From Solirubrobacteraceae bacterium (GTDB lineage Bacteria > Actinomycetota > Thermoleophilia > Solirubrobacterales > Solirubrobacteraceae), in contig JAPSGI010000008.1 in NCBI GenBank assembly GCA_031177685.1, forward strand, positions 1 to 64,000: 64,000 bases of DNA. Direction: 5' to 3'. The number at the start of each line of letters is the position of its first letter. Position 1 is the stretch's first letter. Shown here piece by piece: positions 3,721 through 48,929 of the stretch. The notes beneath the pieces are model-generated. The model made no database searches. It saw nothing but the letters and a program-made list of their open reading frames with translations, and was not told the origin of the DNA. The translations under genes and the position numbers were made by a program.

Positions 3721-3754
3721 TTAGGTCCGTTCCCGCACTACATGGCACGCGAAG

Positions 3755-3786
3755 GAACAACGCGGGCCGGCCGGCAAACGTGACGC
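3755..3786 (-). promoter_or_regulatory. Envelope-type bipartite promoter element for the propeller gene
   Basis: Minus-strand GCGTCACG (3786-3779), 17 bases, GTTGTTC (3761-3755), oriented toward the gene starting at 3720. The predicted transcript has a leader of about 25-30 bases. The divergent MMPL gene instead has its own TATCAT box at 3819-3824. Confidence 0.65.
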
Positions 3787-3830
3787 GCCATACCTGCGTG
3801 CGGCTTGGCGGGCGGCCCTATCATGGGTGC

Positions 3831-6038
3831 ATGGGAAGAGGGGCCCCCCGCGGGAGCTGGGGCCGGTCTCTCCCGAAGGGGGACGGGAAGAGGTCGAGCC
3901 GGCGGCTCGAACATTGGGCGAACCTCGTCCAGGATCGGCGCTGGGCGGTCCTGGCGCTCGCGGCCGTCGTCCTGGCCGGCTCCGCCCTGCTCGGCGGCCA
4001 GGTGGAGGACCGACTATCCAACGGCGGCTTCGAGGACCCGGCGAGCGAGAGCGCCGTCGTGGAGCGCGAATTACAGGACCGGCTGGGATTCGACGTCGAC
4101 CCGGGGATGGTGGTGCTCGCGCGCGCGCACCGCGACGTGCGCAGCAAGCCGGTGCGCGCCGAGCTGGAGCGCCTGGCCGCCGACATCTCCCGCGACCCAG
4201 AGGTGGGAGCCGTGCTGACCCACTACGCCGGCCCGCCCGGGCTCGTGTCGCGGGACGGGCGCTCGACCTACCTCGTGGTGAACTTCCGCATGAAGGACCT
4301 CGACGCCGTGGGGGACGCGACCGAGCGCCTGCGCGAGCGGCTGCGCTCTCAGTCGCTGGAGCTCTCCTACGGCGGCTACGGGGTCTGGTTTCGCCAGGGC
4401 AGCGAGATCGCCAAGCGCGACCTCGAGCGTGCGGAGCTGCTGGTGCTCCCGGCGCTGGCGCTGCTGCTGTTCGTGGTCTTCCGCGGCGTGGTCGCGGCGC
4501 TGCTGCCCCTGCTGCTGGCCGGCTTCGCCCTGCTCGGGACCTACGCCGGTCTGCGGGTGATCGACGGCTTCTCGGACATCTCCGTCTACGCCCTGAACCT
4601 CGCCAGCCCGCTGAGCCTCGGCCTGGCCATCGACTACAGCCTGTTCGTCGTGTCGCGCTACCGCGAGGAGCTGGAACGAGGACGCGATCCCACGGCGGCG
4701 CTGCGCGTGACGCTGCGGACCTCGGGACGGACGGTGGTCTTCAGCTCGCTCACCGTGGCGGCCGCGATGGCGGCGCTGCTGCTGTTCCCCCAGCCCTTCC
4801 TGTACTCGATGGGCATCGCGGGGATCTTCGTCGCCCTGTTCGCCGGCCTGGCGGCACTGACCGTCGTCCCCGCGGCGCTGGCGGTGCTCGGCCCGCGCAT
4901 CAACGCCCTGTCGCTGAAGCGCAAGCGCGGTAACGAGCCCGGCCCGCTGTGGCGGCGCGTCCCGCAGGCGATCGTGCGGCGACCCGGCCTCTCGGCCGCC
5001 GCGGCCATCATCATCGTGATGGTCGTCGCGTCGCCGGCGCTGCGCACGACGTTCACGACGTTCGACACCACGGTCCTGCCTGCCGGCTCGGAGCCGCGCG
5101 TCGTGCGCGAGGCCATCTCGAGCGAGTTTCCCGCCTTCCACGACTCGCCGAACCTCGTGCTGGTGCGCGGCCCGGCGGTCGCCGGCCGCAGCGCCCTGGA
5201 CGCGACGCGCCGGCGGCTGGCCGCGCTGGAGGGAGCCGGCTCGGTGACGCCGCTGACCCGTCTGGGGCCCGACGCGGCGCTGCTCGAGGTCGTCTCGCGC
5301 CATCCGCCGCTGGATCCGGCGAGCCTGCACCTCGTCGACCGCATCCGCGCTTCGGGCCCGGGCGTCGGGGTGACCGGACAGACGGCCGAGTTCGTGGACG
5401 GTCGCCGCAGCATCCTCGATCACCTGCCGATCGCACTGCTGGCGATCGCGCTGGCGACCGTGCCGCTGCTGATGGCGATGACGGGGTCGCTGGTCCTGCC
5501 GTTCGCCGCCCTGTTCCTCAACGCCGTCACGGTGGTGTGCGCCTTCGGCTTCCTCGTCTTCGTCTTCCAGGACGGCCGCTTCACCGGCCTGCTCGACTAC
5601 GAGAGCCTCGGGGGGATCGAGATCAACCAGTCGGTGCTCCTGCTCGCGGTGATCTTCGGCGTCTCGACCGACTATGGCGTGTTCCTGCTCGCGCGCGTGA
5701 AGGAGTTCCTGGACCGCGGGCTCTCGCACCGCGAGGCGGCCGCCGAGGCGGTGCTGCGCACCGGGCGCCTGATCACCGCGGCGGCCGCGGTGGTCTGCGT
5801 CGCCGTCGGCTCGCTGGCCACGTCGAGCCTGGAGTTCCTGAAGGCCGACGGCCTGGGCATCGCCTTCGCGATCGCCTTCGACGCGACGGTGATCCGCCTG
5901 CTGCTGATCCCCTCGATCCTGGCGGTCCTGGGACCGCGCGCCTGGTGGGCGCCCCAGCCCGTCCGGCGCCTGCACGACCGCTTTGCGCAGCGAGCGCCGA
6001 CTGTCGCGCCCATCGCGGCGCCGGAGACCGGCGACTAA
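3831..6038 (+). CDS. MMPL/RND-family membrane transporter
   Basis: 735 residues with the duplicated layout of MMPL proteins: TM1, a roughly 150-residue extracytoplasmic domain, a block of five TM helices, then a repeat of the same plan. Each TM block carries the family Asp-Tyr motif (AIDYSLFV in the first half, STDYGVFL in the second), known in related RND pumps to carry proton-relay residues. These proteins export lipids or other hydrophobic molecules across the inner membrane in actinobacteria; the substrate here is not evident. The ATG at 3831 sits six bases after TATCAT (3819-3824), supporting a leaderless start instead of an upstream in-frame codon. Two same-strand genes follow closely. 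Confidence 0.9.
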   Translation: MGRGAPRGSWGRSLPKGDGKRSSRRLEHWANLVQDRRWAVLALAAVVLAGSALLGGQVEDRLSNGGFEDPASESAVVERELQDRLGFDVDPGMVVLARAHRDVRSKPVRAELERLAADISRDPEVGAVLTHYAGPPGLVSRDGRSTYLVVNFRMKDLDAVGDATERLRERLRSQSLELSYGGYGVWFRQGSEIAKRDLERAELLVLPALALLLFVVFRGVVAALLPLLLAGFALLGTYAGLRVIDGFSDISVYALNLASPLSLGLAIDYSLFVVSRYREELERGRDPTAALRVTLRTSGRTVVFSSLTVAAAMAALLLFPQPFLYSMGIAGIFVALFAGLAALTVVPAALAVLGPRINALSLKRKRGNEPGPLWRRVPQAIVRRPGLSAAAAIIIVMVVASPALRTTFTTFDTTVLPAGSEPRVVREAISSEFPAFHDSPNLVLVRGPAVAGRSALDATRRRLAALEGAGSVTPLTRLGPDAALLEVVSRHPPLDPASLHLVDRIRASGPGVGVTGQTAEFVDGRRSILDHLPIALLAIALATVPLLMAMTGSLVLPFAALFLNAVTVVCAFGFLVFVFQDGRFTGLLDYESLGGIEINQSVLLLAVIFGVSTDYGVFLLARVKEFLDRGLSHREAAAEAVLRTGRLITAAAAVVCVAVGSLATSSLEFLKADGLGIAFAIAFDATVIRLLLIPSILAVLGPRAWWAPQPVRRLHDRFAQRAPTVAPIAAPETGD

Positions 6039-8280: not shown

Positions 8281-9573
8281 TCAGCGCGGGCAGATGTACT
8301 GCCCGGTGTTCTCGTCCAGCAGGCAGCTGCGTTCGGCCTCGTCGCGGTTGCGCGGCGGGCCGCTGGGCGTGGTCTCGGTCTTGGGCTCGGTGCGCTGGGT
8401 GCGCGGCGCCGGCTTGGGATCCGGCGGGGGCGGGGGCGGGGCCTGGGACCTCGCCTGCTCGCGCGCCACGCGCTCGCGGGCGGCCGCCTCGCGCCGGCGC
8501 TCGGCACGCAGACGCTCGCGCGCGGCGCGCTCCAGTGCGGCGACCCGGCGCGACGCGGCGCGGCGCTGGCGCACGGGAAGGCTCCGGTCGGCCTCGCGCT
8601 GGCCGTAGGCGCGCAGCTGGCGCAGCTCGCGCAGGCGCAGCTTGTCCAGCAGCGCCGCCGTCAGCGGCTTGCGCGGCTTGGGCGTGTCCACGCCGGGCGG
8701 CTCCTGCGCGGGCGGCGCGGCCCCATCCGAGAACGACCCGTCGACCGGCTGCTGCAGCCCCGGCGGCCGGTCGTCGCGGGGCGAGTCGAGCAGCCGCAGG
8801 CCGGCCGCCGCTCCCAAGCCGACCAGCAGCGCGACGAGCGGGACGACGACGCTCCAGCGCGTGCGGCGCAGGCGCCCCATGAGCGCGGCGCCGCGACCCG
8901 GCGGTCGCAGTCCGCGCCGGACGCTGCGGCTCGCCTTGGCCGGCGCCTGGGGGGAGTCCGGCGCGAGCACGAGCGTGTGCTCGACGGCGCCCTTGCGCAG
9001 CTGGCGCTCCACGGTGCGGTGGAAGCGGGGATAGAGGTCCTGCCAGATCTCGTTGGGCGGGGCGGCCCACATCCAGTCGCGCGCGGCTTCCTCGGCCTGC
9101 AGCGGCGAGAGCCCCAGCTTCGACGCGAAGGCCTCGCGGCTGCGGGTCAGCAGTTTGCCGGCCTGGTCGACGGGCAGGCCGAGGGCCTGGCCGATCCCGT
9201 CGGGCCCGGCGTGAGTCAGGTCGGCCAGGGCGAGCGCGGCGCGCTCGGCCGGCGCGAGGGCGGACGCCGCCGCCAGCAGCGACTGCGCGCGCGGGTCGCC
9301 CGCCGCCTGCGGCTCGGGGACGTCCGAGCCGGCGCGCAGGGCCGCCTCGACCGTCGACGCGGCCAGGCCCGCCGGGTTCTCCTCGATCTGGCTCAGGAAC
9401 GCGCGCTGCACCGCCTCGGCGGCGGGCGCATGCGCACAGGCGATGCGCAGCGCCAGGTTGTACGCGAGGTAGGCGTGCTGCTCGTAGAAGGAGGTGAATG
9501 CCCGGATGCGCTCCTGCAGAGCCGCCGAGATGTCGTTGCCCTCGGGGCGCGTCAGGACTGCCTGGTCGCTCAC
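8281..9573 (-). CDS. Sigma-70-like domain protein with a transmembrane anchor and extracytoplasmic coiled-coil tail
   Basis: 430 residues from a GTG with a good GGAGAG Shine-Dalgarno. Residues 26-66 resemble ECF sigma region 2 (FYEQHAY...VQRAFLSQIEE). Residues 98-155 resemble sigma region 4, with LAPAERAALAL, a helix-turn-helix-like stretch and SREAF. A single TM helix follows at about 240-262, then an outside portion with an Arg/Ala/Glu-rich coiled coil (about 305-375), a Pro-rich linker and a tail with two Cys. ECF factors with C-terminal membrane extensions are known, but this region 4 is short of basic residues and DNA binding is unproven. It follows the phosphatase gene by seven bases and should be co-transcribed from the envelope-type promoter at 12262-12293. 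It is a candidate regulator, or membrane-held decoy, of that regulon. Confidence 0.7.
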   Translation of the reverse strand: MSDQAVLTRPEGNDISAALQERIRAFTSFYEQHAYLAYNLALRIACAHAPAAEAVQRAFLSQIEENPAGLAASTVEAALRAGSDVPEPQAAGDPRAQSLLAAASALAPAERAALALADLTHAGPDGIGQALGLPVDQAGKLLTRSREAFASKLGLSPLQAEEAARDWMWAAPPNEIWQDLYPRFHRTVERQLRKGAVEHTLVLAPDSPQAPAKASRSVRRGLRPPGRGAALMGRLRRTRWSVVVPLVALLVGLGAAAGLRLLDSPRDDRPPGLQQPVDGSFSDGAAPPAQEPPGVDTPKPRKPLTAALLDKLRLRELRQLRAYGQREADRSLPVRQRRAASRRVAALERAARERLRAERRREAAARERVAREQARSQAPPPPPPDPKPAPRTQRTEPKTETTPSGPPRNRDEAERSCLLDENTGQYICPR

Positions 9574-9580
9574 CGCTCTC

Positions 9581-12220
9581 CTACCTTCGACGACTGCGCG
9601 AGCGCAGCGGGGCGCCCTTGCGCTTGTGCAGCCGCCCCGCGTCCACGATCCGCGCGATCACCCCGCGCGACGGCCCGGTGCAGCGGAACGGTACCTTCTT
9701 GCGCGTCTTGAGGGTGGTGCACGGCTCGCCCCCGCTGAGGCGCCGCTTCCCGGAGCTGGTCTGCGCGATCTCGCGCACGGTCACGCCGATGTAGGTCGGC
9801 TTGAAGAGCTTCGGGAGCTTGAGCTTCATCGTGACGTGACCGCGCTTGACCACGAACGGGTCGAAGCGGGCGATCGGCTTGATGCGCACGGCGCGCCGGC
9901 GACCGCGGCTGCGGCTCCGGCGCGAGCTCTTGACCTGCGACGCCTTGCGGTAGAAGGTGAGGGTCACCGCGGACTCCGGCTTGCCGAAGTCCGCCTCCAC
10001 CTGGACGCGCGAGAGCCGGACTCCGCGCGCCGCCCGCGAGTAGGGGCGACCGCGCGCGTCGACGACGCGTGCCTTGAGCTTCTGCACCAGGCCGCGGAAC
10101 TTGAAGCCCTCCTCCACCACCACCACGTCGGGCGGCGGAAGTGGCGGTTCGGGCGGCGGATCCTCCTCGTGGACGACCTCCGGCGGATCGCAGTCCTCGC
10201 CGACGCAGGGAGTGGCGAGCGGCCTGAGGAACGCCTCCTGGAGGACTCGGCCCTGCAGCTGGTCGGGATGGACCTCGAACGGAAGCTGCATCAGCGCGCT
10301 GATCGTCACCGCGAAGTCGACGGTCTCGGGCTGGGCCTCGTGGCCCGGGTCGTTGGCGTCGTTGCCCACCTCGGACCAGCGGTTGGCGCAGGCGAGGCCG
10401 CCCGGGTCGGTCTGGACGTCGGGGCAGCGGGGGTCGTTGGCCGGCGGCGGCTCGTCGGCGTTGCTGGGGTCCACCTTCCCGTTGCTCACGGGGTAGTACT
10501 TGATCTGCGTCAGCCCGAGCTGGCTCGAGGCGAGGCTGTCGAGGTTTCGCACCGCCCCCGGCGTGGCCTCCTGGCTGGGCCCGTTGATGAGCGCGGCGAC
10601 CGCGCGCTCCTGCGGGCCTCCGGACGATCCGGTGTTCGCGTTCGTCACCGGCTGGCCGGTGAGGCCCCCCTGGTAGGACATTCCGACCGCCCGCCCCGCC
10701 GCCCAGCCGCGCCCGAGCTCGACGACCAGGTCGCCAGCGGCGTTCGTGCGCGCGCCCGTCTTGGGATCGCGCGGGTCCAGGCGCCAGGTCTTCTTCTCCG
10801 CCACGCTCGGCTCACCGAGGGGCGTCTGCGCCGGATCGACGTAGTAGACCTCCCGGATGCAGTCCGGCAGGGAAGGGTTGCGCAGGCGGCACGCGGCCTT
10901 GAGCTCCTCGCTCTTGAGGGCCGCCCGGGCCGTGACGAGGGCGTCGGCGCGGTCCTCCGGGGGACCGTCGTAGTAGAGCGTCGCCATCGTCCCCTGCGGC
11001 ACGAGCTTGAGCACGTTCGGAGTGACGCCCGGGAGCTTGGCCATGTAGTCCGAGAGGTCGTTGAGCTCGTTGGCGGCTCCGCCCGGCGTGGCCGAGGGGT
11101 CGGGGATGCGGTTGATCAGCGGCGTGCGCTGGTAGCCGTGCGTGCCGACCACCATCACGACGGTCTTGTCCCACTTCGCGCGGTTGTGCTGCGCATACTG
11201 CTCGGCGAAGCTGGCGATCGCCGCGTCGGTGTTGGCCAGCGCCTGCGCCGGCTGCGGCGGTTCGGGCACCGTGTTTCCCCCGTCCTCGGGGTCGTCGACG
11301 TCCACGTCGGACGCGAGGCGCTTGGCGACGCCGAGCTCGGCCAGGTGCATGAACGTGAACCCGACCGTGGCGTTGGCCGCGAGCTTGAGGTCGGTGATCG
11401 CCTTCTGCGTCGTCGCCATGTCGCTCGCCGGGCAGTGGGAGGGGTTGAAGTTGGCCTCCTGCGGCACCTGCGACGGGATGCGCGCCCCACCGTCGGGGTA
11501 GCGGGGGATCGGGCACAGGCGCGGGTCGCCGGTGGCCCAGTTGTCGCCCGGATGCGTCGCGCTCCCCTCCGTGCCCGGCGGGAACCAGTACGGGTTGCCC
11601 TCGGTCTTGGCGCCGGTGAGCTCGGCCAGGCCCGGGTCGCCCAGGAAGATCGCGGCGTCGCCGCCCGTGTCGCGCACCACGCCGATCAGCGTGTCGATCC
11701 CGAGGCTGGCGATCGGCTCGGCCGCGTCCGTCGCCGCCCTGGCCTCCTCGCCCGGGACGTCGCCGAAGTTGCCGGCGGTCAGGCGCTGGCGCTGGAACGA
11801 AGAGTTCTCCGTCGGGCCGTAGAAGTCGTCGGCCGGCACGCCGGTCTTCTCCGGGTAGCCGCCGCTGAGCAGCGATGCCGTCGCGGGGGCGGTGCCGGTG
11901 GACATCACGCCGCGCGGCGCCTGCCAGATCCATCCCGAGCGACCGCTGAGCGCGCTGCCGGGGACGTTCTGGCCCTGGGCGGTCGGATGGGCCAGCCGCC
12001 ACAGGTAGGGAGTCGTCTGCTCGGTGACGTCCTTGGGCTCGAGCCCGTCGACCTGGATGAGGATCACGCAGCTGGGCGAGCAGCCGTCGCCGGACTGCTG
12101 CTGGCCGCTGGCCTCGCCGGTGCGCAGCGCGATCGCCAGCAGCGTGCACAGCAGGGCGATGCCGATCCCCGCCATCCCCCACCGCCGCCGACTCCATCCG
12201 CGATCTGTCACCCGCCGCAT
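9581..12220 (-). CDS. Secreted alkaline-phosphatase-superfamily protein (type I phosphodiesterase/phosphatase-like)
   Basis: 879 residues. An N-terminal TM or signal segment (about 14-33) is followed by an alkaline-phosphatase fold: the first metal motif IQVDGLE (about 53-59), then MSTGTAPATASLL, which supplies the probable Thr/Ser nucleophile, and later VVGTHGY as the second metal-site region. Such enzymes hydrolyse phosphate mono- or diesters outside the cell. About 250 C-terminal residues form a separate region with an acidic/Pro linker and an Arg-Lys-rich domain containing two Cys, as in other secreted proteins of this window. The ATG has a GGAGG site upstream. It is the first gene of an operon with the sigma-like membrane protein, driven by the element at 12262-12293. 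The substrate is unknown. Confidence 0.75.
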   Translation of the reverse strand: MRRVTDRGWSRRRWGMAGIGIALLCTLLAIALRTGEASGQQQSGDGCSPSCVILIQVDGLEPKDVTEQTTPYLWRLAHPTAQGQNVPGSALSGRSGWIWQAPRGVMSTGTAPATASLLSGGYPEKTGVPADDFYGPTENSSFQRQRLTAGNFGDVPGEEARAATDAAEPIASLGIDTLIGVVRDTGGDAAIFLGDPGLAELTGAKTEGNPYWFPPGTEGSATHPGDNWATGDPRLCPIPRYPDGGARIPSQVPQEANFNPSHCPASDMATTQKAITDLKLAANATVGFTFMHLAELGVAKRLASDVDVDDPEDGGNTVPEPPQPAQALANTDAAIASFAEQYAQHNRAKWDKTVVMVVGTHGYQRTPLINRIPDPSATPGGAANELNDLSDYMAKLPGVTPNVLKLVPQGTMATLYYDGPPEDRADALVTARAALKSEELKAACRLRNPSLPDCIREVYYVDPAQTPLGEPSVAEKKTWRLDPRDPKTGARTNAAGDLVVELGRGWAAGRAVGMSYQGGLTGQPVTNANTGSSGGPQERAVAALINGPSQEATPGAVRNLDSLASSQLGLTQIKYYPVSNGKVDPSNADEPPPANDPRCPDVQTDPGGLACANRWSEVGNDANDPGHEAQPETVDFAVTISALMQLPFEVHPDQLQGRVLQEAFLRPLATPCVGEDCDPPEVVHEEDPPPEPPLPPPDVVVVEEGFKFRGLVQKLKARVVDARGRPYSRAARGVRLSRVQVEADFGKPESAVTLTFYRKASQVKSSRRSRSRGRRRAVRIKPIARFDPFVVKRGHVTMKLKLPKLFKPTYIGVTVREIAQTSSGKRRLSGGEPCTTLKTRKKVPFRCTGPSRGVIARIVDAGRLHKRKGAPLRSRSRRR

Positions 12221-12261
12221 ATCTGATCCTCCAGCCTCGACAGCTTCCGTGCCTGCACCCA

Positions 12262-12293
12262 GAACAACCGGGGAGCGGCCCCGCGCGTGACGC
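12262..12293 (-). promoter_or_regulatory. Envelope-type bipartite promoter element for the phosphatase/sigma-like operon
   Basis: Minus-strand GCGTCACG (12293-12286), 17 bases, GTTGTTC (12268-12262), 41 bases before the ATG at 12220. It sits in the 109-base gap after the ftsH-like gene and can serve only the minus-strand gene, which fixes the functional direction of the motif. The expected leader is about 35 bases and holds a GGAGG ribosome site. Confidence 0.7.
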
Positions 12294-12329
12294 GCAATTC
12301 ACGCATGGGACCGCTCCGGGTCAGGTTCC

Positions 12330-14273
<1,944 letters not shown>

Positions 14274-20372: not shown

Positions 20373-20448
20373 CTCTCCGCCAGCGGCCCGCGTCCTCCAG
20401 AGGCGGGTCGCCGGCTTCCCCGGTCGCGTGCCTAGCGACCTTCTGCGG

Positions 20449-20480
20449 GGATAACCCACGGGAGCCGCGATCCGTGACGG
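20449..20480 (-). promoter_or_regulatory. Envelope-type bipartite promoter element for the wall-hydrolase operon
   Basis: Minus-strand CCGTCACG (20480-20473), 17 bases, GTTATCC (20455-20449). It directs transcription left toward the gene starting at 20372, with a leader of about 70 bases. Its partner at 20509-20540 faces the other way, so the 173-base gap holds a back-to-back pair. Confidence 0.65.
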
Positions 20481-20508
20481 CGAATTGCGCCGGCGGGCAC
20501 GCGACTGA

Positions 20509-20540
20509 CCGTCACGTTCCCGCGCGCGCGCGTGTTATCG
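20509..20540 (+). promoter_or_regulatory. Envelope-type bipartite promoter element for the coiled-coil lipoprotein gene
   Basis: CCGTCACG, 17 bases, GTTATCG, then ATG at 20546, six bases after the hexamer GTTATC. The geometry matches the copy at 24031-24062 base for base and implies a leaderless mRNA. Confidence 0.7.
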
Positions 20541-20545
20541 GTGCG

Positions 20546-21088: not shown

Positions 21089-22076
21089 GGCGCGCGCTCG
21101 AGGCCGCCTCGAGGAACACGTTCTCCCAGCGGTCGGCGGCCGCCTCGATCGTCTGGCCCTTGGCCCACGACCGCCCCTTGCGCGCCAGGCGCTTGCGCTC
21201 GCGCCGGCGGGTCACCAGACGCTCCAGCGCGTCGAACCAGCCGTCGTCCGGCACGAGCCTTCCACCCTGGTCCTCGCCCAGAGCGGCGTAGGGCCCGACC
21301 GGCGAGGCGAGCCACGGGACGCCCGAGGCCGCGTACTCCTTGACCTTGATGTCCGAGCGGGTGCGGTTGCCCGGGAGGTCGGCGAGCGGCGCGATTGCGA
21401 CGTCGAACCCGCCGATCCGCCGCGGCAGCTCCATGAAGGGCACCAGGCCGTCGTGGCGGTAGCGCTCCGGCAGCGCCAGGTCGACGCCGATGCACTCGAC
21501 CCGCACCTCGGGGTGCGCCTCGAGCAGGTGCGTGAGCGCCTGCACGATGGGGATGCGCAGCACGTCCGCGCGGTGGTCGATCCCGCCCACCCAGCCGATC
21601 ACGATGCCGTCGTGGCGGTTGCGCGGACGCTCGACGTCGTGCAGCACGTAGTTGGGGATGACCTCCACCCGCTCGATCCCGGACTCGCGGTATTTGGCCG
21701 CCAGGCGGTCGTTGGTCGTGGTGAAGACGCGGGCCATGCGCGCCGCCTTGACCGTCATCGCGTGGATCCGCACGCCGGTGGCACCGCCGACCTTGCGGAA
21801 GTCGGGACTCTCCTTGGGGACGGCGGTGAAGTCGTCGTCGTTGTCGTAGGTCACGGCCGTGCCGGCGCGGTCCAGCTCGGCGAGCACCCGGCGCGTCGCG
21901 TCGTCCGCGCGCCGGTACACGTGGACCAGGTCGCAGCCCGCGAACGCGCCGGCGGCGGCGCGCCCCTCGTCGTCGGGCCAGCGGACCTCGTGCCCGCGGC
22001 GCTGCATCGCCTGCATCGGCGCCAGCGCGCGGTAGAAGGCGGCCGAGTTGGCCTCGAACAGGACCCCCAGGCGCAT
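21078..22076 (-). CDS. Glycosyltransferase, GT4-like (GT-B fold)
   Basis: 332 residues, no signal peptide, so cytoplasmic. The N-terminus (MRLGVLFEANSAAFYRALAP) and the central IGWVGG segment look like the two Rossmann halves of a GT-B enzyme. The C-terminal region DIKVKEYAASGVPWLASPVGPY matches the nucleotide-sugar binding motif of family 4 enzymes (the E in KEYAASG). It should transfer a sugar from an activated donor to an envelope acceptor; donor and acceptor are unknown. It is last in a three-gene unit, two bases after the 3D-domain gene, and expressed from the promoter at 23992-24023. Confidence 0.8.
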   Translation of the reverse strand: MRLGVLFEANSAAFYRALAPMQAMQRRGHEVRWPDDEGRAAAGAFAGCDLVHVYRRADDATRRVLAELDRAGTAVTYDNDDDFTAVPKESPDFRKVGGATGVRIHAMTVKAARMARVFTTTNDRLAAKYRESGIERVEVIPNYVLHDVERPRNRHDGIVIGWVGGIDHRADVLRIPIVQALTHLLEAHPEVRVECIGVDLALPERYRHDGLVPFMELPRRIGGFDVAIAPLADLPGNRTRSDIKVKEYAASGVPWLASPVGPYAALGEDQGGRLVPDDGWFDALERLVTRRRERKRLARKGRSWAKGQTIEAAADRWENVFLEAASSARPTS

Positions 22077-23973: not shown

Positions 23974-23991
23974 CTATAGCGTCCCCGAAGG

Positions 23992-24023
23992 GAACAACCA
24001 CGCGGGGCGGGCAAGCGTGACGC
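23992..24023 (-). promoter_or_regulatory. Envelope-type bipartite promoter element for the CWB2/3D/glycosyltransferase operon
   Basis: Minus-strand GCGTCACG (24023-24016), 17 bases, GTTGTTC (23998-23992), 18 bases before the ATG at 23973. It is back to back with the plus-strand copy at 24031-24062; the two -35-like boxes are only seven bases apart. Confidence 0.7.
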
Positions 24024-24030
24024 GCAGTTC

Positions 24031-24062
24031 GCGTCACGCCTGGGCGGCCTGGCTCGTTGTTG
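24031..24062 (+). promoter_or_regulatory. Envelope-type bipartite promoter element for the membrane-anchored protein
   Basis: GCGTCACG, 17 bases, GTTGTTG, with ATG at 24068 beginning six bases after GTTGTT. The geometry is identical to the copy at 20509-20540 and indicates a leaderless transcript. Confidence 0.7.
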
Positions 24063-24067
24063 GGCGC

Positions 24068-26529: not shown

Positions 26530-26548
26530 CCCCCTTGGTGGCGTACGG

Positions 26549-26580
26549 GGAGAACCAGGCAGCTCGCGCGCGCGTGACGC
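26549..26580 (-). promoter_or_regulatory. Envelope-type bipartite promoter element for the glycoside hydrolase
   Basis: Minus-strand GCGTCACG (26580-26573), 17 bases, GTTCTCC (26555-26549), 19 bases before the ATG at 26529. The divergent gene at 26614 does not use it; that gene has TACAGT at 26602-26607, six bases before its ATG. Confidence 0.6.
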
Positions 26581-26613
26581 CCGATTGGGCCGCGCCCGCT
26601 CTACAGTCCCGGC

Positions 26614-36481: not shown

Positions 36482-37135
36482 TCAGGCCCGGGCGCGTGAG
36501 CGGGCCGGACGGCGCTTCTTCGCCGCCGGCGCCGGAGGCGCGTCGGGGACCTGCACGCCCTCGAAGAACATCATCGCGACCATCGCCTCGCGCTCGCCCT
36601 CGTGGTTGCCTTTGCGCAGGCGCTCCAGGCTCTCCGCGTGGATGCGGTCGACCTTCTCCAAGGTGCGGGCCAGCTCGGCGGCGATCGCGCGCCAGCCCTG
36701 CTCGTCGAGCCGCAGCTTCGTCAGGCTCATGTGGGCGTCGTCCGCCGCGAAGCCGCCGGCCGCCGCGGCCGCGTTGACCTGCGCGCCGATCTCGTCGAGC
36801 GCCGCGCCCGCCATCGCCTGCTTGACGATGCCGGGGACCTTGGCCCACGCCTCGTCGGGGATGTGGTGCTTGGCGTCCGCGCGGTAGTAGTGCTCGATGG
36901 CGCCGCGGCGCGGCGTCTTGCGCACCAGCTTGATCAGGCCGAGCGCCTCGAGGCGGCGGACGTGGTAGCTGACGACGCCCAGCGACGCGTCCAGCTCCAG
37001 CGCGATCTCGCTGGGACTCGCCACTCGCTGCTCGAGAATGGCAAGGATCCGGACCCGCAGCGGATGAGCGAGCATCTTGACGAGGCGAGCATCGATGATC
37101 TCGTCTCTACGTTTGGTTGTCTTCGCGCCAGGCAT
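36482..37135 (-). CDS. ArsR-like winged-helix transcription regulator
   Basis: 217 residues. KMLAHPLRVRILAILEQRVASPSEI and DASLGVVSYHVRRLEALGLIKLV form an ArsR/HTH_20 winged helix in the first 90 residues, followed by GAIEHYYRA. The rest is helical (about 100-200) and ends in a Lys/Arg-rich tail. No metal-binding Cys motif is seen, so the signal is probably not a metal. The 5' end overlaps the sigma factor gene by 29 bases, so the two are co-expressed. It ends two bases after tRNA-Trp. Confidence 0.85.
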   Translation of the reverse strand: MPGAKTTKRRDEIIDARLVKMLAHPLRVRILAILEQRVASPSEIALELDASLGVVSYHVRRLEALGLIKLVRKTPRRGAIEHYYRADAKHHIPDEAWAKVPGIVKQAMAGAALDEIGAQVNAAAAAGGFAADDAHMSLTKLRLDEQGWRAIAAELARTLEKVDRIHAESLERLRKGNHEGEREAMVAMMFFEGVQVPDAPPAPAAKKRRPARSRARA

Positions 37136-37493
37136 TCCTCAACCGCGCTCGGATGCGGTGCAGACGGACCTTAACCGTGCCCTCGGGCAGATCCAACCTG
37201 CGTGCAACCTCGGCCTGCGAAAGGTCGTGACGGTACCGAAGGTGTATCAGGACTCGCTCGTCGGGGCGTAGGCAGTCGAGCATGTCCTGCGCCGCGAGGT
37301 CGGCGAGAAGCACGTCGATCGGGTCGTCGGAGGGGGTTCGCGACGGCTCCAGCGGCGACATGATCTCGCGCTCCGAGCGCTGGGTGCGGCCTTTGAGGAT
37401 GCGCAGCGCCTCGTTGTGCGTGATGCGCAGCAGCCACCCCAGCGGATCGTCCTGGCTCTCGCACGCGGTGCGCCGGCGCCACGCCCGCGTCAT
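37107..37493 (-). CDS. ECF-type RNA polymerase sigma factor, start codon unclear
   Basis: From the first canonical start (ATG 37493) the protein is 128 residues and contains part of region 2 (WLLRITHNEALRIL) and a full region 4 (LRPDERVLIHLRYRHDLSQAEVARRL, GTVKVRLHRIRARL). The same frame continues upstream to about 37610 with clear region 2 coding (EPDWDWRFARSRCLREARR, DREDAEEAVQEA) but has no ATG, GTG or TTG; only ATT at 37634 or ATC at 37637 are available. Either a non-standard start is used or a frameshift separates it from TTG or ATG starts in the other two frames. It overlaps the ArsR-like gene and diverges from a methyltransferase. ECF factors direct stress or envelope regulons. Confidence 0.75.
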   Translation of the reverse strand: MTRAWRRRTACESQDDPLGWLLRITHNEALRILKGRTQRSEREIMSPLEPSRTPSDDPIDVLLADLAAQDMLDCLRPDERVLIHLRYRHDLSQAEVARRLDLPEGTVKVRLHRIRARLRNAWREDNQT

Positions 37494-37692
37494 CGCCTCC
37501 TGAACCGCCTCCTCGGCGTCCTCGCGGTCGCGCAGGACCCGCCGCGCCTCGCGCAGGCAGCGCGAGCGGGCGAAGCGCCAGTCCCAATCCGGCTCCGGAA
37601 GCGGGAGCCCGGTTCTGTCGGTCGCAGGCTGAATGATCGGACATTGTCCTCTACTGAAACGCTTTTGAGCAATAGCTGGGTCGTACGGAGGG

Positions 37693-38508
37693 ATGGAGCC
37701 CTCTGCCGCCCGCTCTTCGACGACGTGCCCCGGCGCGCCGTCCGCGCTGCCCGCCTACGAGGTCCTGGCCCCCTTCTACGACCGCTACACGGCCGACTTC
37801 GAGCACGAGGTCGTGCTGGAGCAGCTCGAAACGCTGGCCCTCGAGCACGGCCTCCGCGGCCGCCGGGTGCTGGACGTCGGGTGCGGGACCGGCAAGAGCT
37901 TTTTGCCGCTGCTGGTCCGCGGCTACGACGTGACCGCGTGCGACATCTCGCCGCGGATGGTCGAGCGCGCCCGGCGCAAGCTCGGCAAGACAGACGCGGG
38001 GCGCGTCGTCGTCGCCGACATGCGCGCCCTGCCGTGGCGGCGGGCCTTCGACCTGGTCACCTGCCTCGACGACGGCCTGAACTACCTGCTGTCGGACTCC
38101 GACCTCGCAGCGGCGCTGCGGTCGATCGGGACGGCGCTGCGCCCGGGCGGGCTCGCCGTGTTCGACGTCAACACGCTGCGCACGTACCGCGAGACGTTCG
38201 CCGAGGAGTTCGTCGTCGAGTCCGGCCAGACCGTTTTCGAGTGGCGGGGCGAGGGGACCGGCGACGTGAAGCCGGGCGGCCTGTCGTCGGCCGTGCTGGA
38301 CGTCCGCATGGGAAGCGGGCGCCTGCACGCGACGAGCCGCCACACGCAGCGCCACCACCCGCGCGAGGCGCTGGAGGCCGCCTGCCGCCGCGCCGGCCTG
38401 GACCCGCTCGCCGTCCGGGGCGTCGCGCCCGGCGCCCACCTCGTGGAGGACCCCGACGAGGAGGTCCACCGAAAGCTCGTCTTCGTCGCCCGCAGGCCGG
38501 CGACATGA
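37693..38508 (+). CDS. SAM-dependent class I methyltransferase
   Basis: 271 residues with a good GGAGGG site directly upstream of the ATG. YEVLAPFYDRYTADF precedes motif I VLDVGCGTGKSFLPLL, then VTACDISPRMVERARRK, MRALPW and the post-motif ALRPGGLAVFDVNT. Substrate unknown; the resemblance is to Methyltransf_11/25 enzymes. The stop overlaps an in-frame ATG of the MFS reading frame (ATGA at 38505-38508), so the two genes are one operon. Confidence 0.85.
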   Translation: MEPSAARSSTTCPGAPSALPAYEVLAPFYDRYTADFEHEVVLEQLETLALEHGLRGRRVLDVGCGTGKSFLPLLVRGYDVTACDISPRMVERARRKLGKTDAGRVVVADMRALPWRRAFDLVTCLDDGLNYLLSDSDLAAALRSIGTALRPGGLAVFDVNTLRTYRETFAEEFVVESGQTVFEWRGEGTGDVKPGGLSSAVLDVRMGSGRLHATSRHTQRHHPREALEAACRRAGLDPLAVRGVAPGAHLVEDPDEEVHRKLVFVARRPAT

Positions 38509-46941: not shown

Positions 46942-48929
46942 GCCGCGAGCCGGGCCGCCAGCTCGACGAACCAGTCGAGCGCGGCGGGGTTGGCGAGCGA
47001 CTCGCGGCTGGCCGCGCGGTCGGGGGGAGTGCCCATGAGGATCTTCTTGACCGGGATCTCCAGCGCCTTGCCGCTGAGCGTGCGCGGCACCTCGGCGATC
47101 TCGTAGACCTCGTCGGGGACGTGGCGCGGCGAGCAGTCGGCGCGGATGCGGGCGCGGATGGCCGCGCGGACGTCGTCGTCGAGCTCGGCGCCCTCGCGCA
47201 TCACCACGAACAGCGGCATCCAGCCCTCCGTCCCCGGGCGCGGGATGTCCACGACGAGCGCGTCCACGACCTCGGAGATCGCCAGCACGGCGCGGTAGAT
47301 CTCGCTCGTGCCCATGCGCACGCCCTGGCGGTTGATCGTGGAGTCCGAGCGCCCGTAGATGACCGCCGTGCCGCGCGAGGTGATCTCGATCCAGTCGCCG
47401 TGGCGCCAGACGCCCGGCCACATGTCGAAGTACGAGGCGCGGTAGCGCTCCCCGTCCGGGTCGTTCCAGAAGAACAGCGGCATGGAGGGCATCGGCTGGG
47501 CGATCACCAGCTCGCCGACCTGGTCGACGACCGCGCGTCCCGACTCGTCCCACGCCTGCACGTCGCAGCCCAGCGCGCGGGCCTGCAGCTCGCCGCGGTA
47601 CACCGGCAGCGTCGGGACTCCGCCCACGAACGCCGTGCACACGTCGGTCCCGCCGGACGTGGAGAACAGCCACACGTCGTCGCGCACGTCGTCGTAGATC
47701 CAGTCGAAGCCCTCGGGCGACAGCGGCGAGCCCGTCGAGCCGATCGACCGCAGCGCCGACAGGTCGTGCTCGCGGCCCGGTGCGATCTCGGCCTTCATGC
47801 ACGCCGCGACGTAGCTGGCGCTGGTGCCGAGGCACGTGAGGCCGGCGTCCTGCGCGAAGCGCCACAGGACGCCCATGTCGGGATGACCCGGGTTGCCGTC
47901 GTACAGCGCGATCGTCGCGCCGGTCAGCAGCGTGCCGACGAGGAAGTTCCACATCATCCAGCCGGTGGTGGTGAACCAGAACATGCGGTCGCCCGGGCCG
48001 GCGTCGAGGTGCAGGAACCCCTTCTTGAGCTGCTCGAGCAGGATGCCGCCGTGGCCCTGCACGATCGCCTTGGGCAGCCCGGTCGTGCCGCTGGAGTACA
48101 GGACCCACAGCGGATGGTCGAAGGGGACCGCCGCGAAGGTCAGCTCGTCCTCGAAGGCCAGCAGCTGGTCCCACGTCATCGCCGCGCGCAGGCGGTCGAG
48201 GTCGCCGCGCTCGTGGCTGAGCCCCGCGTTGCGGTACGGCAGGACCACGGTGCGCTCCAGCGTCGGCATCTCCGCCTGCAGGGCCGCCACCACGTCGAGG
48301 CGGTCGAACTCCCTGCCGCCGTAGCGGTAGCCGTCGACGGCGAGCAGGACCTTGGGCTCGATCTGCGCGAAGCGGTCGATCACGCTGCGCGCGCCGAACT
48401 CCGGCGCGGCGCTGGACCAGATCGCACCCAGCGAGGCGACGGCCAGGAAGGCGACGACGGTCTCGGGGACGTTCGGCAGGTAGGCCACGACGCGGTCGCC
48501 CTCCCCCACGCCCAGCGCGCGCAGCCCGGCGGCGGCGCGCGCCACCTGCGCGCGCAGCTCGTCCCACGAGACGGTCACGTCGTCGCGCGTCTCCGAGCGC
48601 GCGATCATCGCCGGCGCCCCCGCGCGCGCCCGCGCGAAGACGTGCTCGGCGTAGTTCAGCCGCGCGCCGGGGAACCACTGCGCGCCCGGCATCTCGCGCG
48701 CGCCCAGGACGCGCTCGTACGGCGCGGCCGCGCGCACCTCGCAAAACTCCCAGATCGACGCCCAGAACGCCTCGAGATCGCCCACCGACCACGCCCATAG
48801 CTCGTGGTAGCCGTCGAAGGACAGGCCGCGCGTCTTTTCCAGCCAGCGCGCATAGCGGGTGAGCGTCGCGCCCTCGATCCGCTCCTCGGAGGGGCTCCAC
48901 AGCAGCTCGCCACGGTCCCCTCCCGCCAT
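46938..48929 (-). CDS. Acetoacetyl-CoA synthetase (acetoacetate-CoA ligase)
   Basis: 663 residues, the family length. The N-terminal SVGDLEAFWASIWEFCEV and MPGAQWFPGARLNYAEHVF are typical of AACS. The AMP-binding motif is YSSGTTGLPKAIVQGHGG, then FWFTTTGWMMWNF, TSGGTDVC, and the C-terminal PRTLSGKALEIPVKK with the catalytic Lys. It activates acetoacetate with ATP and CoA, allowing ketone-body or leucine carbon to enter acetyl-CoA pools. It is last in a four-gene operon with carboxyltransferase, membrane protein and 3-hydroxyacyl-CoA dehydrogenase genes. Confidence 0.92.
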   Translation of the reverse strand: MAGGDRGELLWSPSEERIEGATLTRYARWLEKTRGLSFDGYHELWAWSVGDLEAFWASIWEFCEVRAAAPYERVLGAREMPGAQWFPGARLNYAEHVFARARAGAPAMIARSETRDDVTVSWDELRAQVARAAAGLRALGVGEGDRVVAYLPNVPETVVAFLAVASLGAIWSSAAPEFGARSVIDRFAQIEPKVLLAVDGYRYGGREFDRLDVVAALQAEMPTLERTVVLPYRNAGLSHERGDLDRLRAAMTWDQLLAFEDELTFAAVPFDHPLWVLYSSGTTGLPKAIVQGHGGILLEQLKKGFLHLDAGPGDRMFWFTTTGWMMWNFLVGTLLTGATIALYDGNPGHPDMGVLWRFAQDAGLTCLGTSASYVAACMKAEIAPGREHDLSALRSIGSTGSPLSPEGFDWIYDDVRDDVWLFSTSGGTDVCTAFVGGVPTLPVYRGELQARALGCDVQAWDESGRAVVDQVGELVIAQPMPSMPLFFWNDPDGERYRASYFDMWPGVWRHGDWIEITSRGTAVIYGRSDSTINRQGVRMGTSEIYRAVLAISEVVDALVVDIPRPGTEGWMPLFVVMREGAELDDDVRAAIRARIRADCSPRHVPDEVYEIAEVPRTLSGKALEIPVKKILMGTPPDRAASRESLANPAALDWFVELAARLAA

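Follow-up and report, generated by a model that had tools for sequence, protein, structure and literature searches.

A sigma factor is the part of RNA polymerase that chooses promoters, and the stretch of DNA analyzed here (64,000 nucleotides from a soil actinobacterium of the Solirubrobacteraceae, genome G000, hereafter the window) raises the question of whether a promoter might be read by a sigma-like protein held in the membrane. One operon of an apparent envelope regulon encodes a protein with a sigma-like N-terminus, a transmembrane (TM) helix and an outside part, and it is preceded by an unusual promoter-like element. A sequence-only reading had proposed that this protein is a membrane-held sigma factor that reads the element or, as a fallback, that it no longer binds DNA and relays a signal instead.

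The operon and its membrane-anchored product

The open reading frame at 8281-9573 on the minus strand was confirmed at 430 aa, with a GTG start at 9573, AGGAG just 5' of it and a stop at 8281, and the coordinates first assigned to this gene were thereby upheld. Its ribosome-binding site was rated good and overlaps the stop codon of the 5' neighbor gene. The TM helix that had been placed at about residues 240-262 was recovered at nearly the same position (Table 1), and because its inner flank is Arg-rich, the sigma-like domain was placed inside the cell. An AlphaFold2 (AF2) model was made from a shallow alignment of two sequences and has a pLDDT of 65 overall and of about 76-92 in residues 101-160. 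It predicted long outside helices (residues 306-377) and, at the C-terminus, a hairpin between C417 and C428 that is conserved in the ortholog from a second genome, G003. We also considered this cysteine hairpin as a shared tag and rejected it; on the contigs scanned, it was present in just the two orthologs.

The gene order ftsH - phosphodiesterase - sigma-like gene was also found in G003, an actinobacterial MAG. In that genome, the phosphodiesterase ortholog (G003:C29 ~38427; L018 ~7428) lies in two frames, reflecting a frameshift or an assembly error. Clear orthologs of both the sigma-like protein and the phosphodiesterase were found in only 2 of the 146 family genomes, G000 and G003. Furthermore, a 399-genome sample of the class yielded no additional ortholog of the sigma-like protein, a scan of GTDB contigs recovered the known ortholog alone, and viral contigs and plasmids contained no relatives of it.

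Table 1. Positions in the window of the sigma-like gene, the parts of its product, the neighboring genes and the promoter-like elements.
Feature	Position	Strand	Evidence
Membrane-anchored sigma-like protein gene, 430 aa	8281..9573	-	ORF, ribosome-binding site, ortholog at same place in G003
Sigma region 2.1-2.2-like part, residues 24-62	9388..9504	-	ECF profile match; 62% identity between orthologs
Region 2.3-2.4 remnant, residues 63-82, loop deleted, W/N/R lost	9328..9387	-	Profile match, alignment
Sigma region 4-like part, residues 99-156; 4.1 conserved, 4.2 eroded	9106..9279	-	Profile match, alignment, ortholog identity
Single TM helix, ~residues 241-262, Arg-rich inner side	8788..8853	-	Hydropathy and AF2 helix
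Outside helical segment, residues 306-377, possible coiled coil	8443..8658	-	AF2 helices
C-terminal two-cysteine hairpin C417-C428, SCLxxxxGxYxCP	8290..8325	-	Conserved in ortholog; AF2 hairpin
Secreted type I phosphodiesterase/phosphatase-like gene, first in operon	9581..12220	-	PF01663 6e-12; syntenic in G003
ftsH, next gene upstream of phosphodiesterase-like gene, start approximate	12330..14273	-	NCBIfam FtsH 659 bits; 73% identical and syntenic in G003
Promoter-like element GCGTCACG-N17-GTTGTT, 5' of phosphodiesterase/sigma-like operon	12258..12297	-	Matrix score 30.6; also 5' of G003 ortholog
Element 5' of beta-propeller gene ending at 697	3751..3790	-	Matrix
Element 5' of transglycosylase operon	20445..20484	-	Matrix
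Element 5' of 20546 lipoprotein-like gene	20505..20544	+	Matrix
Element 5' of 22780-23952 gene	23988..24027	-	Matrix
Element 5' of 24068 gene	24027..24066	+	Matrix
Element 5' of 24937-26511 gene	26545..26584	-	Matrix

Sigma homology and the state of the DNA-reading regions

Pfam returned no family at E<=1 for the 430-aa protein, and thus neither Sigma70_r2 nor Sigma70_r4, and the protein was not in the PF08281 list at E<=0.01. Weak NCBIfam and PDB sequence matches pointed to SigE-type ECFs (SigE, E=0.0057 and 0.013). A profile of 50 intact ECFs, taken from related genomes and excluding the query, scored 36.3 bits for the protein and 26.1 bits for its ortholog, compared with 6.3 for the best of 400 shuffles. 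When the AF2 model was submitted to Foldseek, the best PDB matches included SigW, SigJ, SigG1, RpoE-NepR, CnrH and PhyR, with E-values of 0.008 and weaker, and several of the ECF sigmas among the top matches are anti-sigma-bound structures. Because the profile score is far above that of the shuffles and the model matches ECF folds, we conclude that the N-terminal domain is homologous to ECF sigmas. The sigma-like character originally assigned to the N-terminus was therefore retained, by a custom profile and the predicted structure rather than by Pfam, although the complete regions 2 and 4 that had been assumed were not: region 2.3 lacks its loop, and 2.4 has degenerated.

The profile match was interrupted exactly over columns 62-100 (hmmsearch), corresponding to region 2.3-2.4, which reads and melts the -10 sequence. 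The loop of region 2.3 is deleted (10 aa in this protein, 8 in the ortholog, by MAFFT), and the 2.4 helix is without the diagnostic W, N and R that are present in 98%, 88% and 84% of intact ECFs, respectively. Thus, a complete -10 reading and melting region is absent and the sigma domain is incomplete; the loss of -10-reading residues had been raised in the sequence-only reading as something to look for. In region 4.2, G or A replaces the E found in 94% of ECFs, and the ortholog shows further erosion of the first helix. The column and charge comparison came from hmmalign, which left the N-terminal halves of both proteins unaligned; only its output for region 4 of the two proteins and its residue frequencies for intact ECFs were usable, and regions 2.3-2.4 were compared by hmmsearch and MAFFT instead.

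Identity between the two orthologs was 62% in region 2.1-2.2 and 64% in 4.1, the best-conserved parts of the entire protein, whereas it was 35% in 2.3-2.4 and 31% and 30% in the two parts of 4.2. When pooled, the difference was 38/61 vs 18/56 (p=0.0016), a thin pattern given that it comes from two sequences and hand-set region limits. One pair of true ECF orthologs from G000 and G003 was 72-82% identical across all four regions, and 72-81% in the DNA-reading ones. From this contrast, selection seems to hold the protein-contact faces (2.1-2.2 and 4.1) and not the DNA-reading parts.

Decay offers a different account of these data, in which the protein is an envelope protein that works outside together with the phosphodiesterase, and its inner domain is a sigma relic that serves as an anchor or scaffold and has no role in transcription. 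The loss of the DNA-reading parts, the secreted enzyme encoded in the same operon and the conserved outside hairpin are all consistent with it, but a pure relic leaves unexplained why conservation is best in 2.1-2.2 and 4.1, and we consider this account somewhat unlikely.

Region 2.1-2.2 carries core contacts in ECFs. As this region is among the best-kept parts and the gene lies within the regulon, the pseudo-sigma could be an inhibitor that occupies core polymerase or an extended ECF (see below) at the membrane and damps the regulon by negative feedback. Against this idea, cysteines are absent between residues 47 and 416, which leaves no zinc-finger anti-sigma segment between the sigma-like domain and the TM helix, and Pfam and NCBIfam detected no known anti-sigma domain in the 430-aa protein. 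A fused, juxtamembrane anti-sigma-like motif, which had been suspected from a resemblance by eye to small proteins adjoining extended ECFs, was sought in the segment linking the sigma domain to the TM helix and rejected, as neither of two profile tests was significant. Such an inhibitor is therefore improbable.

In other genomes, three loci (L008, L010 and L025) encode ECF domains that continue into long C-terminal tails, and the tails at L008 and L010 have cysteine motifs resembling zinc-finger anti-sigma segments. These fusions are possible models for an ancestor of the present architecture.

The promoter-like element and its candidate readers

The bipartite element, GCGTCACG-N17-GTTNTT, precedes the phosphodiesterase/sigma-like operon in both genomes, as expected from the earlier statement that this operon carries the envelope element. 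It was first detected as AAC-N17-CGTGACG, with 9 occurrences in the window vs 0.08 expected. This orientation, which would make it a GGAAC-type ECF promoter, was rejected, because only as GCGTCACG-N17-GTT do the G003 sites and the phosphodiesterase sites of both genomes point to genes. A matrix trained on 23 sites found 8 sites in window positions 1-27.5 kb and 0 in the other 168 kb of the contig, as well as 23 sites in 99 kb of G003:C29, vs about none in Markov controls; most of the sites on both contigs had served to train it. Outside the training set, 4 sites scoring >20 were found in the 20 kb around a cluster of extended ECFs in G000:C17. Elsewhere in the class, exact-pattern matches, counted at any position, intergenic or not, were mostly of low density.

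ECF41 promoters have the sequence TGTCACA-n16-CGTC (PMC3426412), and they share with the element a -35 built around GTCAC and an identical distance to a -10 GT(C/T) (PMC3426412). The flanking bases differ and the -10 of the element is GTTNTT; the comparison covers promoter sequence. The agreement in -35 core and spacing makes a putative ECF-type promoter the best reading of the element. Membership of the sigma-like gene in the envelope regulon is supported. At three sites (window 20505-20544 and 24027-24066, and L173:17458-17497), the GTT lies only ~7-12 bases 5' of a start codon, a short distance that suggests leaderless transcripts.

The two genomes that carry the sigma-like gene also encode ECFs with the N-terminal extension YCVVPxDLAxxLHxxLRxxYRDDPxVxVVVEQRRxDRR. 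There are 8 matches in G000 (at G000:C17:17384-28255 and C27:166842-174563; L173 and L174), one of which matches without the first 62 residues, and 3 in G003 (G003:C29: 21719-22888, 44844-45833 and 46306-47328). Among the 146 family genomes, such proteins were full length only in these two, and matches elsewhere were essentially to the sigma part alone. Region 2 of the extended ECFs is intact, as the three copies scanned passed the Pfam cut-off well. An element-like site (score 19.8) lies ~40 bases 5' of the G003 extended ECF at 21719, and an element at L173:14990 (G000:C17) is 5' of a small gene running into an ECF.

Small proteins with the motif DPLVxRLRxLxWAEVPxxxRxRCWxRI adjoin extended ECFs in both genomes (L173:14645-14962 and 4404-4754; G003:C29:45878-46171; weaker at 48459-48566 and 13823-13927), and these are candidate anti-sigma or accessory proteins. 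In the window itself, an intact ordinary ECF sigma at 37107-37754 (minus strand), followed by a short regulator-like gene, had been overlooked by a simple gene call.

The extended ECFs resemble the membrane protein in occurring in the same two genomes with the same element nearby, but they differ from it in their intact region 2 and their own N-terminal extension, and they are not the ECF type closest to its sigma-like domain. Because they are intact, confined at full length to these two genomes and have the element upstream or nearby, it appears more likely from sequence that the element is read by the extended ECFs than by the membrane protein. Since the gene, the element and the extended ECFs are found together, phyletic pattern alone cannot separate these candidate readers. 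The co-occurrence of gene and element, which had been proposed as a check, was seen in G000 and G003, but a third genome, G001, which comes from a second species of the genus, has one strong element and no detected sigma-like gene, in an assembly that is only 72% complete. The G001 element (G001:C50, L140:5707-5746; score 29.6) lies directly 5' of a gene for a DsbA-like thioredoxin lipoprotein.

Previous studies described tethered ECFs, i.e. ECF48, ECF52 (SCO4117), ECF53 and IutY (ECF243), in which a sigma domain inside is joined through a TM helix to a long outside part (PMC8999054). The membrane protein has the same layout, its TM helix (residues 241-262) following the sigma domain, but it differs from the ECF48/ECF52/ECF53 type in having an incomplete sigma domain and no zinc-finger anti-sigma segment. 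With this precedent (PMC8999054), its sigma homology and TM helix, the conserved gene order with ftsH and the co-occurrence with the element in both genomes could be taken to indicate a working tethered sigma that recognizes the envelope promoter, either after release by proteolysis, FtsH being encoded close by, or while still membrane-bound. We regard this as very improbable, because the 2.3 loop and the W, N and R of 2.4 are gone, 4.2 is eroded and poorly conserved, Pfam finds neither region 2 nor region 4, and intact ECFs are closely associated with the element. The original proposal of a membrane-held sigma reading this promoter was therefore set aside for its fallback: the loss of DNA-reading residues and the retention of protein-contact parts, the only ones conserved between the orthologs, better support a protein that no longer binds DNA and that may act as a relay. 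The better candidates for the switch of the envelope genes are complete sigma factors encoded at other places in the genome, and the membrane protein probably tunes that switch.

A candidate sigma mimic within the envelope regulon

Sigma mimicry is best known from PhyR. In alphaproteobacteria, this anti-anti-sigma protein titrates NepR through a degenerate sigma-like domain (PMC8103513). PhyR, which was among our Foldseek matches, resembles the membrane protein in its ECF-like fold with degenerate promoter-reading regions (PMC8103513), but the latter differs in having no receiver domain, no PF22233 match (Pfam) and no known NepR partner, and in being membrane-anchored with an outside domain. 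By analogy, the protein is PhyR-like in logic and ECF48/52/53- or IutY-like in layout, and a member of neither group.

The best explanation, which we hold with moderate confidence, is that the protein is a membrane-anchored pseudo-sigma, or sigma mimic, within the envelope regulon that binds a candidate sigma partner. Its ECF domain has retained the protein-contact parts 2.1-2.2 and 4.1 and lost the promoter reading and melting parts 2.3-2.4 and most of 4.2, and the one predicted TM helix tethers it to the outside helical domain that ends in the two-cysteine hairpin. Because it is presumably transcribed from GCGTCACG-N17-GTTNTT, an ECF-type promoter of the regulon, its level should rise when the regulon is on. 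At the membrane, its partner may be core polymerase, an anti-sigma protein or the extended ECFs, and through this binding the extended ECFs would receive either feedback or an outside signal. The evidence for a pseudo-sigma consists of the sigma homology, the residue loss in 2.3-2.4, the predicted TM helix, the conserved operon and element, and the presence of extended ECFs, while the promoter role of the element, the partner bound, the sign of the effect and the sensing of a signal, and hence the mechanism, are inferred. Two considerations weigh against it: a decayed relic would lose the DNA-reading residues too, and the comparison involves two sequences, hand-set regions and a shallow AF2 model.

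A more specific version of the pseudo-sigma explanation, which we offer tentatively and consider rather unlikely as a whole, is that the mimic, made from an ECF promoter, senses the outside through its helical and disulfide-hairpin domain and switches the extended ECFs by competing for their partner, i.e. PhyR-like mimicry at the membrane. If true, a membrane-spanning mimic would provide a direct route from an outside signal to sigma competition that requires no kinase. The apparent envelope regulon, with its defined promoter element, seems not to have been described before, and the expanded set of extended ECFs, as probable readers of this element, makes it testable.
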